This document shows positions 17,250 to 19,441 of a stretch of DNA of 40,068 nt, one piece after another. This DNA is from an uncultured bacterium. GTDB taxonomy: Bacteria > Bacillota_I > Bacilli_A > RFN20 > CAG-826. A model generated the notes under the pieces. It was not told the DNA's origin. It saw only the letters and a program-made list of their open reading frames with translations, and did not search any database. A program made the translations under genes and the position numbers. The stretch is from positions 1-40,068 of the forward strand of contig CASEVI010000002.1 of assembly GCA_949291375.1 (NCBI GenBank). The letters run 5' to 3'. Position 1 is the first letter of the stretch, and the number at the start of each line of letters is the position of its first letter.

Positions 17250-18152
17250 TTATTTAAAATATTTATCATATTTTTCATTTAAATTTTTAAAATATTTTTT
17301 AAAGAACCTATAAAATCCTTTTTGGTGATTCTTTAAAAAATCACCTATAATCTTATTATCACTAATAATTTTCTCATAATTATATGCTCCATTAACTTTC
17401 CATTTTTCTAACATTCCAATATTAATTGCATCTTTCGGACAAAAAAATGAACATCTCATACACATAATACATTTATTATTAAATTTATATTTATCATTAA
17501 CCTTAACAATATTATTTGTCGGACAATCATTCATACATTTATTACAGTGAATACACTTTGAATAATCAATTTTATAAAAATATGAATTAACTGGTCCACC
17601 TAATCTTTGAATTTTAAAAATTAAAGCATTTAAATAAATAAAAGGATTAGATTTTATTTTTGATACTTTACTATTTTTTAAATCATAAATAAAAATATCT
17701 AATAATTTCAAAGTTGAATTATATAATTCTTTAACAAATTCATCACTATAACGAAAATGAATGTTATACGGGAATAAAAAATGATATTCACCATTTAATT
17801 TAATTTCATTTTTCCTTAATTTTCTTTTAATAAATGCTGAAGATGAATTATTTAAAGATAAAGGTTCTCCGCTTTGTTTTAAAATATAATACTTTTTATT
17901 TTTGATAAATTTTAATTTTTTTAAATATTTATCAAAAATAATTGGTGAATTAAAGGCGTAAATAGGATAAGAAAATATAATTAAATCATATGAAGATAAA
18001 TCAATAACTTCTTTTTTATAATCAATTGAACATATATTCGTTAAATAAAGATTTTCTCTTTCTAATCTTTCTTTAATTAAAGAGGCTAAAAAAGAAGTAT
18101 TTCCAGTCCCACTAAAATATATAATTACCGCTTTATTTATTTTATTTTCCAT
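17250..18152 (-). CDS. EFR1 family ferrodoxin (flavodoxin-like plus two 4Fe-4S clusters)
   Basis: A 300-residue redox protein. Residues ~8-160 have a flavodoxin-like fold, with the FMN phosphate loop in YFSGTGNTSFLA. Residues ~200-245 carry two ferredoxin clusters, CIHCNKCMNDCP and CIMCMRCSFFCP. The combination is the EFR1 type, common in gut Firmicutes; the partner reaction is unknown. It starts 16 nt inside the end of the upstream SDR gene with no Shine-Dalgarno sequence, so it is probably translated by coupling. Asn, Lys and Ile content is very high even for this window. Confidence 0.87.
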   Translation of the reverse strand: MENKINKAVIIYFSGTGNTSFLASLIKERLERENLYLTNICSIDYKKEVIDLSSYDLIIFSYPIYAFNSPIIFDKYLKKLKFIKNKKYYILKQSGEPLSLNNSSSAFIKRKLRKNEIKLNGEYHFLFPYNIHFRYSDEFVKELYNSTLKLLDIFIYDLKNSKVSKIKSNPFIYLNALIFKIQRLGGPVNSYFYKIDYSKCIHCNKCMNDCPTNNIVKVNDKYKFNNKCIMCMRCSFFCPKDAINIGMLEKWKVNGAYNYEKIISDNKIIGDFLKNHQKGFYRFFKKYFKNLNEKYDKYFK

Positions 18153-19063
18153 AAATCAAATAATTCATTAGTTAATAAATAAATTCTATCAATAATTTCT
18201 TTATTCATTAAATCTTTTCTTAATTTATATATTTTAGGATATCCCCAAAATTTAAATAATCCTCTAGGACCAATCCATAGATTATTATTAATCTTAGAAA
18301 TATCAGCCCCTTTTAATAAAGATAAACATGCTTTTGATGGTTTCATAAATATAGTATTCATTAAAAATGGAACAAAATAATAAAACCATTTACCATAAGC
18401 ATTATTCTTTTTATCAAAAAGATTAGTTTTACTTACTCCAGGATGAACAAAAATAATATTTTTATTTTCTTTTACTTTTAAATAAAGTAAATATTCCATT
18501 ATTAATCTTTTACTTAATCCATAGCGTAAAGTCTTATTTTTAATTTTCTTTAAATAATTTATAAAAGATTCTGTATTCTCAAAAACACTTATATTTTTAA
18601 TAGTTTTAATTGAATAAGTAACACTACTTACATCAACAACTTTTATTAATGGAAAGATATTAAATAAATGTGAGATAAAATAAGAAGGGGCTAAATAATT
18701 TACAATAAAAGTTTTTTCAATATCATTAATATATTCTTCCTTTTGATGATAAATACCGCTAACATTTATAAAAACATCGATCTTTTTATATGATTTTAAA
18801 ATATTTAAACAATCATTAAGGCTATTTATATTTAAATAATCGAAAAATATAATAAATATTTTAGTATTATATTTTTCGATTATTTCACTTTTAATTATTT
18901 CAGAAAATTTTATATTCCTGACCAAAAAAATTAATTCATTATTTAAAGATGCTAAATAATTAGCAGTTTCTTTCCCAATTCCTCCGGTAATACCATTAAT
19001 TAAAATGGTTTTATTTTTTAAACCTTTAATATTTTTATTTATCCATTTATCATAACTTTTCAT
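18137..19063 (-). CDS. Short-chain dehydrogenase/reductase
   Basis: A 308-residue NAD(P)-dependent oxidoreductase of the classical SDR type. The glycine motif is INGITGGIGKETANYLA (residues ~22-38), NVSGIY stands for NNAG, and the catalytic pair is YGLSK (YxxxK, about 157-161) preceded by the VSSVTYS serine. HPGVSKTNLF follows. The overall form resembles retinol-dehydrogenase-like SDRs; the substrate is unknown. It overlaps the EFR1-type gene, so the two may pass electrons or act on one substrate. No Shine-Dalgarno sequence; a promoter ends 6 nt before the ATG. Confidence 0.9.
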   Translation of the reverse strand: MKSYDKWINKNIKGLKNKTILINGITGGIGKETANYLASLNNELIFLVRNIKFSEIIKSEIIEKYNTKIFIIFFDYLNINSLNDCLNILKSYKKIDVFINVSGIYHQKEEYINDIEKTFIVNYLAPSYFISHLFNIFPLIKVVDVSSVTYSIKTIKNISVFENTESFINYLKKIKNKTLRYGLSKRLIMEYLLYLKVKENKNIIFVHPGVSKTNLFDKKNNAYGKWFYYFVPFLMNTIFMKPSKACLSLLKGADISKINNNLWIGPRGLFKFWGYPKIYKLRKDLMNKEIIDRIYLLTNELFDLWKIK

Positions 19064-19069
19064 AAAACT

Positions 19070-19098
19070 TTATTAAAATAATATTAATTTTGCTTCAA
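19070..19098 (-). promoter_or_regulatory. Promoter of the SDR-EFR1 pair, predicted leaderless
   Basis: On the minus strand: TTGAAG (19093-19098), 17-bp spacer, TAATAA (19070-19075), then 6 nt to the ATG at 19063. Confidence 0.5.
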
Positions 19099-19117
19099 AA
19101 GTGAATATTATTTTTCT

Positions 19118-19201
19118 TTTTAGCATTCTTGTACTACGTACGGGGTGGTTGAACCTTTTATATAAGAACCCCGTTCTTATATTATATATATGTATATAAT
19201 A
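19118..19201. other. Structured GC-rich element beside tRNA-Ser, function unknown
   Basis: The 19064-19287 gap holds, besides the SDR promoter and the tRNA terminator, a GC-rich patch in very AT-rich DNA. It has GTAC-TAC-GTAC at about 19130, a 10-bp arm repeat with a CCC loop (19160-19182), a 9-bp arm AT repeat (19180-19201), and ACGGGGT (19139) that can pair with ACCCCGT (19168), excluding the CCC-loop hairpin. No open frame and no tRNA fold was found in it. It could be a small RNA or a remnant of a lost element. Confidence 0.4.
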
Positions 19202-19250
19202 AATTATATAAATAAGATAATCCATTATAATTTATTACTAAAAGGTCAAC

Positions 19251-19273
19251 AAAAAAATGCGATATTCATCGCA
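19251..19273 (-). terminator. Terminator of tRNA-Ser(GCU)
   Basis: The stem TGCGAT / ATCGCA with a 4-nt loop is followed by seven T on the minus strand, 15 nt past the tRNA 3' end. Confidence 0.88.
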
Positions 19274-19287
19274 CATTTTTCCTAATA

Positions 19288-19377
19288 TGGCGGAGTAAGA
19301 GAGGATCGAACTCTCGCACCGGTTGCCCGATCTACTTCCTTAGCAGGGAAGCCCCTTCACCACTTGGGTATTACTCC
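19288..19377 (-). tRNA. tRNA-Ser (anticodon GCU)
   Basis: 90 nt on the minus strand with CCA encoded. The 7-bp acceptor stem GGAGTAA / TTACTCC, discriminator G, anticodon stem CTTCC/GGAAG with loop CTGCTAA (anticodon GCT, reads AGC/AGU), a long class II variable arm and the TTCGATC T-loop are all visible. Confidence 0.97.
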
Positions 19378-19398
19378 ACTGTCAATTCAGGCTAAATT

Positions 19399-19404
19399 AT
19401 TATA
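19399..19404 (-). promoter_or_regulatory. -10 box of tRNA-Ser(GCU)
   Basis: A perfect TATAAT on the minus strand, 21 nt before the mature tRNA 5' end. The -35 region is weak (TAGTAA at 17 bp). Confidence 0.5.
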
Positions 19405-19441
19405 TCAAAGGAAATATTAAATTACTACTAGAATTTTTGTT

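Follow-up and report, generated by a model that had tools for sequence, protein, structure and literature searches.

The stretch of DNA analysed here, called the window throughout, comprises 40,068 nucleotides from an uncultured bacterium of the Bacilli_A, and the patch of interest (19118–19201) lies between a short-chain dehydrogenase gene (18137–19063, minus strand; PF00106), from which it diverges, and a gene for tRNA-Ser(GCU) (19288–19377, minus strand), which converges on it and lies outside the element. The inverted repeats named for this patch in the initial annotation were all found in place by direct sequence reading: a 10-bp stem, ATATAAGAAC/GTTCTTATAT, with a CCC loop (P1, 19160–19182; loop 19170–19172), a GTAC/GTAC pair (19131–19134 and 19138–19141), the sequences ACGGGGT (19140–19146) and ACCCCGT (19168–19174), the latter overlapping the P1 stem, and a 9-bp AT stem (19180–19188/19193–19201, in a fold of 19137–19202), which may be low-complexity sequence. 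The same annotation held that the patch codes for nothing and is not a tRNA, and this agrees with our searches, as no ORF of at least 60 aa overlaps the patch and ARAGORN detects just the neighbouring tRNA-Ser. A search of the whole window against Rfam 15 at the gathering cut-off returned two tRNAs only, leaving the patch unmatched, and a permissive Rfam search of 19000–19420 gave the tRNA and two sub-threshold matches outside the patch. The folding energy is unexceptional on both the plus strand (z = −1.17, with 27/200 shuffles equally good) and the minus strand (z = −1.67, 10/200 shuffles).

The patch is predicted to be expressed from the plus strand, and all features in this paragraph are on that strand unless stated otherwise. 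An A-tract with a −35-like box, (G)TGAATA (19097–19107), and a −10-like box, GCATTCTTG (19123–19131), form the pattern TGAATA-N15/16-GCATTCTTG, the second box being common to the leaders of comEA, a comFA-like gene and recA. Downstream lie P2, a short inverted repeat (GTAC-TAC-GTAC, 19131–19141) that spans the predicted start and was assessed by stem statistics on 35 segments (see below), the 5′ G-run CGGGG (19141–19145), which is complementary to the CCCCG of the P1 loop and is part of a Shine-Dalgarno (SD)-like 5′ arm, and the P1 hairpin, which covaries in 30 copies and has its place taken in genome G005 by other stems around the C-run. A terminator-like hairpin followed by a T-run (19258–19273) gives the window copy a same-strand terminator-like site downstream; the orthologous loci L010 and L011 have a similar hairpin, and a minus-strand terminator-like site for tRNA-Ser overlaps it. 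Such sites are not a general feature: under a loose rule, a terminator-like site was found 70–260 bases downstream in 34 of 66 entries, coding and chance entries included. Membership of the covariance model (CM) family, promoter geometry and the terminator together predict a small RNA at 19138–19281, which would start at about 19138 and run to the terminator; there may also be a shorter form that stops near 19190. We also observed that GTTGAACCTTTT (19148–19159) can pair with AAAAGGTCAAC (19240–19250) just 5′ of the terminator, closing the whole RNA, and that L010 and L011 seem by eye to have such complements as well.

The own genome of the window (G000; 1.29 Mb in 12 contigs) was searched with positions 19100–19220, which gave seven matches with E < 1e-10, self included, and many others covering only the first ~34 bases; the longest copies are alike over ~90–120 bases. 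Family copies start with the promoter-like motif GTGAATA-N15/16-GCATTCTTG, and on our own reading the dispersed copies fall into three types: type A, that of the window, has G-runs followed by a hairpin that has a C-run at its loop; type B is as type A minus that hairpin; and type C consists of ACGTCGACGT, G-runs, and GGGAATAA..TTATTCCC. This gives nine type A, four type B and seven type C non-coding loci in G000, about 20 in total, and the patch is very probably one of about 20 related small-RNA genes in this genome. What the three sub-types have in common is mainly the promoter and the G-run/C-run plan, and inspection of tiny ORFs by eye found none that is consistent across the copies.

We expanded the search to 96 genomes, in which the type A/B family proved narrow: its model matches in 6/96 genomes (G000 12, G003 10, G021 9, G005 4, G022 1 and G023 1) and has no match in the other 90 at E 0.01. 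The type C model matches in G000 (7), G003 (7) and G021 (6), and its single matches in G077, G033 and G083 look like chance on reading. A DNA search with 227 bases matched in 85/96 genomes at E 0.1, many of the matches being short, AT-rich and chance-like, and only the strong matches in G000, G003, G021 and G022 were used. In another comparison, the row for G028 represents a wrong ORF. A 20-base pattern from the start of type A had eight matches among named species genomes, all in the assemblies CALVYH01 (an uncultured Bacilli bacterium MAG) and CASEKC01 ('uncultured bacterium'), with records of the own genome possibly excluded, and it had no exact match in viral contigs. With regard to genomic position, the window copy adjoins the dehydrogenase gene and tRNA-Ser in each of G000, G003 and G021 (L001, L010 and L011), and about nine further positions are syntenic between two or three of these genomes, as judged from genes compared and named by eye. 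No tRNA lies within the fetched locus (~1.5 kb or less per side) in 18 of the 20 G000 copies; there is a tRNA-Gln ~1.3 kb from copy L005, and the window copy is the only one of the 20 to adjoin a tRNA.

The motif at the start of the copies is not confined to them. TGAATA-N13-19-GCATTCTTG has 19 exact sites in G000 against none for reversed-pattern controls, and the boxes are 15 or 16 bases apart at all 19. Among the 96 genomes it was further found in G003 (17 sites), G021 (12) and G022 (3), and as single, chance-like sites in G060 and G088, with zero sites in the other 90. A separate pattern search matched in 47/96 genomes with controls firing in several genera, and only hits in genus g1 were used from it. 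In a profile of 64 sites, which were themselves defined by the boxes, A/T tracts lie immediately 5′ of GTGAATA and a purine is found at the seventh base past CTTG in 93%. We read GTGAATA as the probable −35 box, GCATTCTTG as the −10 box and the purine as the start, a reading favoured by the nearly fixed spacing (15–16) and the A/T tracts. We also considered GTGAATA as the −10 box with CATTCTTG transcribed, for which we presume a −10 of the ComX/SigH-like kind; P2 straddles the predicted start, for which a plain promoter offers no explanation, and if P2 were inside the RNA, transcription would have to start further upstream. GTGAATA as a −10 box would explain both P2 and the inverted repeat at comEA described below.

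By our reading of the 19 G000 sites, 12 lead to non-coding family copies, six to ORFs and one is ambiguous. The six ORFs are comFA-like, recA, comEA, an ABC transporter, a 60-aa peptide and an ORF without a Pfam match, and in G000 rpsF-ssb, too, is preceded by a form of the motif that has the variant box GGCATA. RecA scores above its family cut-off; ComEA matches the helix-hairpin-helix family TIGR00426 above the cut-off and the comEA subfamily TIGR01259 below it, and the ORF next to comEA has a weak ComEC-like match, also below cut-off. The comFA-like gene has helicase domains and a CPLCG motif, with a weak ComF match next door, and its identity as comFA is suggested by these general domains and its neighbours. 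The promoter-like motif of the patch is the motif that precedes DNA-uptake genes, which by motif would place the patch in the competence regulon.

Several observations on these loci deserve separate mention. The ABC transporter ORF (L088, L124, L313) begins ~8–9 bases past the −10-like box, and its mRNA would thus be nearly leaderless. In the comEA leader, inspection by eye revealed a long inverted repeat that hides the SD sequence and has the −10-like box in its loop (L133–L140 and L142, from G000, G003, G021, G022, G005, G015, G010, G002 and G023), with arms that co-change between species (AACCTCCTTTATA/TATAAAGGAGGTT, AACCTCCATC/GATGGAGGTT); transcripts begun within the loop would be translatable and read-through ones would not. 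The 60-aa peptide gene is conserved with its competence motif (L093, L109, L110, L111, L294, L295, L298), and the product shows a weak likeness to class IIb bacteriocins (TIGR03949, below cut-off) and, in those read to the end, a C-terminus of PGG plus six residues; it is possibly a pheromone or bacteriocin. Finally, at L255 (G000:C2:227447-227470) a run of 10 G lies shortly 3′ of TTGAC and upstream of an ATG, and similar runs of at least seven G after TTGAC occur in G066, G069, G074, G083, G093 and G094, which looks like a phase-variable promoter.

In related species the first box is changed. Thirty comEA leaders were sought, of which 19 were extracted (from the own and other species) while the script failed to locate the other 11; the boxes are altered in near relatives, and several more distant ones have no clear motif. 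The pattern RTAAA-N13-16-ACATTCTTG occurs 11 times in G005, 10 times in G002 and 12 times in G023, its controls giving no hit in these three genomes, and the first box is GTAAA (one ATAAA) in G005 and ATAAA in G002 and G023. The other 23 genomes of the genus have none (15 genomes) or one or two sites (eight genomes), several of them chance-like, and the control gives one or two hits in seven of these 23. Genes behind the RTAAA sites are comEA, a comFA-like gene, DprA (in G002, TIGR00732, above cut-off) and a protein with a C39-peptidase domain; the latter has the same competence motif in G002 and, by likeness, in G023. The changed box precedes comEA, comFA-like genes and several small RNAs of the patch family in G005, competence genes and one small RNA (model E 0.0078) in G023, and was seen before genes only in G002. 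That protein-coding genes and small RNAs have the same box changed in front of them is the strongest indication that both belong to one regulon.

The motif may be read as a promoter by a divergent sigma factor. G000 has two RpoD-like and two ECF-like sigma genes, and in addition a divergent sigma-like ORF of 195 aa between rlmB and nusG (G000:C1:350640-351224), which falls below its NCBIfam cut-off (25.3 vs 42.9 bits). This ORF was found in 16/56 genomes, flanked by rlmB at 16/16 and by nusG at 13/16 loci. The sigma-like gene is present in each of the seven species that carry some form of the motif, and also in species where the motif or the RNAs were not seen. The boxes differ from those that we take to be recognised by SigH of B. 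subtilis.

The check proposed in the initial annotation, a covariance search for compensatory changes, was carried out on the P1 stem. From 45 matches, 30 type A matches at 30 of 44 loci were retained, leaving out 14 loci (type B and poor matches, including L180, L247 and L249). Changes on both sides with pairing kept were found in 6/8 modelled pairs among these 30 copies, a result reached by 0/500 shuffles, and compensatory cells numbered 27 against 7.2 in shuffles and 1–3 in slid controls; because 19 of the 30 copies had been used to build the model to which the alignment was fitted, this test leans towards pairing. Similarly, the best P2 stem averages 3.37 over 35 segments, a set that includes about four chance sites, two leaders of coding genes and hardly any type C copies, compared with 2.37 in shuffles (0/2000 reach the observed mean). 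A stem of four or more is present in 19/35 segments and absent in 16/35, with GTAC/GTAC swapped for other complementary arms in some other copies, and the window's own P2 segment alone is not significant (0.062).

Of the two-state folding suggested by the initial annotation, the plausibility stands, and the evidence for it is indirect, consisting of an association between loop class and G-run class among paralogues that are not phylogenetically independent. Copies with a CCCCG loop have CGGGG as first G-run in 7/8 cases, against 3/16 for those with a TCCCA loop (Fisher p 0.002), and a second G-run of at least three is present in 2/8 and 16/16, respectively (p 0.0002), with 6/30 copies outside both classes. 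CCC is present in 30/30 type A copies and UCCC in 17/30, the window copy having CCCC. An exposed CCC is not universal, since by eye one C sits in the closing pair in three G005 type A copies, and CCC lies within a stem in type C copies.

Our preferred reading, to which we give a probability of roughly 0.6, is that the patch is a plus-strand small-RNA gene with about 20 paralogues, which shares a regulon with competence genes and acts on translation initiation. The small-RNA option raised in the initial annotation is well supported by the competence-gene motif, the syntenic paralogues, the compensatory changes and the plus-strand terminator-like hairpin, and we consider it highly probable that a competence-linked small RNA exists. 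In the proposed mechanism, the divergent sigma factor would read the motif as a promoter with transcription starting at ~19138, and the RNA would act at translation initiation through pairing of the C-run at the P1 loop with G-rich SD sequences of target mRNAs. The RNA's own SD-like 5′ G-run could mask the P1 loop, so that the two folds would represent an off form and an on form. This part, control of translation through a C-rich loop masked by the 5′ arm, is put forward tentatively, at somewhat less than an even chance. A rather unlikely extension is that during competence the ~20 RNAs, with their SD-like arm and anti-SD-like C-run, retune translation initiation cell-wide, and that the start-site palindromes silence read-through; by that reading the palindromes would be built like the inverted repeat that hides the SD sequence around the comEA promoter.

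Several other explanations were weighed. It is possible, if unlikely, that the 5′ arm is a ribosome decoy that pairs through its SD-like stretch (e.g. AAGGGTGGGTGATCC in some copies) with the 16S rRNA 3′ end, the role of the C-rich loop being limited to regulating it. With the 16S tail presumed to be the standard Firmicutes end, the pairing is matched by at most 7.5% of 200 shuffles (mononucleotide, not dinucleotide) in 26/30 type A copies, by none in seven and by 3.5% for the window copy, but four copies score poorly (0.295, 0.25, 0.235 and 0.095), and the SD likeness may be inherited from a competence leader, because such mRNA leaders also carry SDs. We think it improbable that the copies function as DNA only, as spare sites titrating the competence sigma factor or RNA polymerase with functionless transcripts: conservation is highest in the promoter boxes (although they also defined the sites) and P2 surrounds the predicted start, yet the compensatory changes of P1 lie well 3′ of the promoter and the C-run is kept in 30/30 type A copies. 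The many dispersed copies with their long stretches of likeness would also suit a non-functional, MITE-like mobile repeat with a chance promoter, a very unlikely explanation given copies at identical positions in two or three species, which disfavour recent movement, the limited plan common to the three sub-types, and the lack of exact matches in viral contigs for the one 20-base pattern. Some copies point towards a same-strand gene, as would be expected of a leader or attenuator belonging to an adjacent gene, but the window element is convergent with tRNA-Ser and divergent from the dehydrogenase gene, and downstream of several other copies there is either a gene in the opposite orientation or no gene nearby, making this reading highly improbable. 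The scar of an element integrated at a tRNA, the other option of the initial annotation, is rejected with near certainty even though tRNA-Ser adjoins the copy, in L010 and L011 as in the window, because the same copy has the same neighbours in three species, the other copies lack a tRNA in their locus (18/20), and the 20-base start pattern has no exact match in viral contigs. Separately, a minus-strand leader or riboswitch of the dehydrogenase gene was ruled out, the common part of the copies being a plus-strand promoter-like motif, and the end of an IS200/IS605-type element, considered from the hairpins only, was dropped.

Since the switch-like sequence in front of the copies also precedes the DNA-uptake genes, the patch looks like a member of a regulatory RNA family tied to natural transformation, for which no description was found in the open-access literature searched. 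It would be an apparently undescribed many-copy RNA family linked to the DNA-uptake genes of an uncultured Bacilli lineage, and a sequence signature of the regulon is now available for several species, which allows metatranscriptomes to be checked immediately. Were the RNAs to work in the suggested way, competence in these bacteria would alter translation broadly, beyond transcription.

The sigma-like gene resembles SigH-type factors of the Firmicutes in lying near nusG, as sigH is found at a related locus, cysS-nusG, in L. sakei and also in other Firmicutes (PMC3364868), whereas its sequence in the patch genome is very divergent. Pneumococcal competence includes non-coding transcripts (srf-01, srf-29 and others), of which two are linked to starts or genes under ComX control; srf-01 is judged unlikely to be functional and srf-29 to be of unsettled function (PMC6560143). 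These are likewise non-coding transcripts of a competence response, but represent individual loci rather than a ~20-copy family. The csRNAs of S. pneumoniae are five highly similar copies that are CiaR-controlled, competence-linked and target comC (PMC4507080). Both cases have several similar small RNAs per genome tied to competence, and differ in that the family described here carries the motif of DNA-uptake genes, has ~20 copies in three sub-types and lacks an Rfam match. With regard to mechanism, LhrC of Listeria binds lapB mRNA at the SD region with a C-rich hairpin-loop motif (PMC4132741), and by analogy the patch RNA may pair with SD regions of its targets. Like LhrC and other UCCC-motif sRNAs of low-GC bacteria, the family is multicopy and has a C-rich motif in hairpin loops, whereas it differs from LhrC in sequence and promoter, has one C-run per RNA, and carries a 5′ G-run able to mask that C-run.
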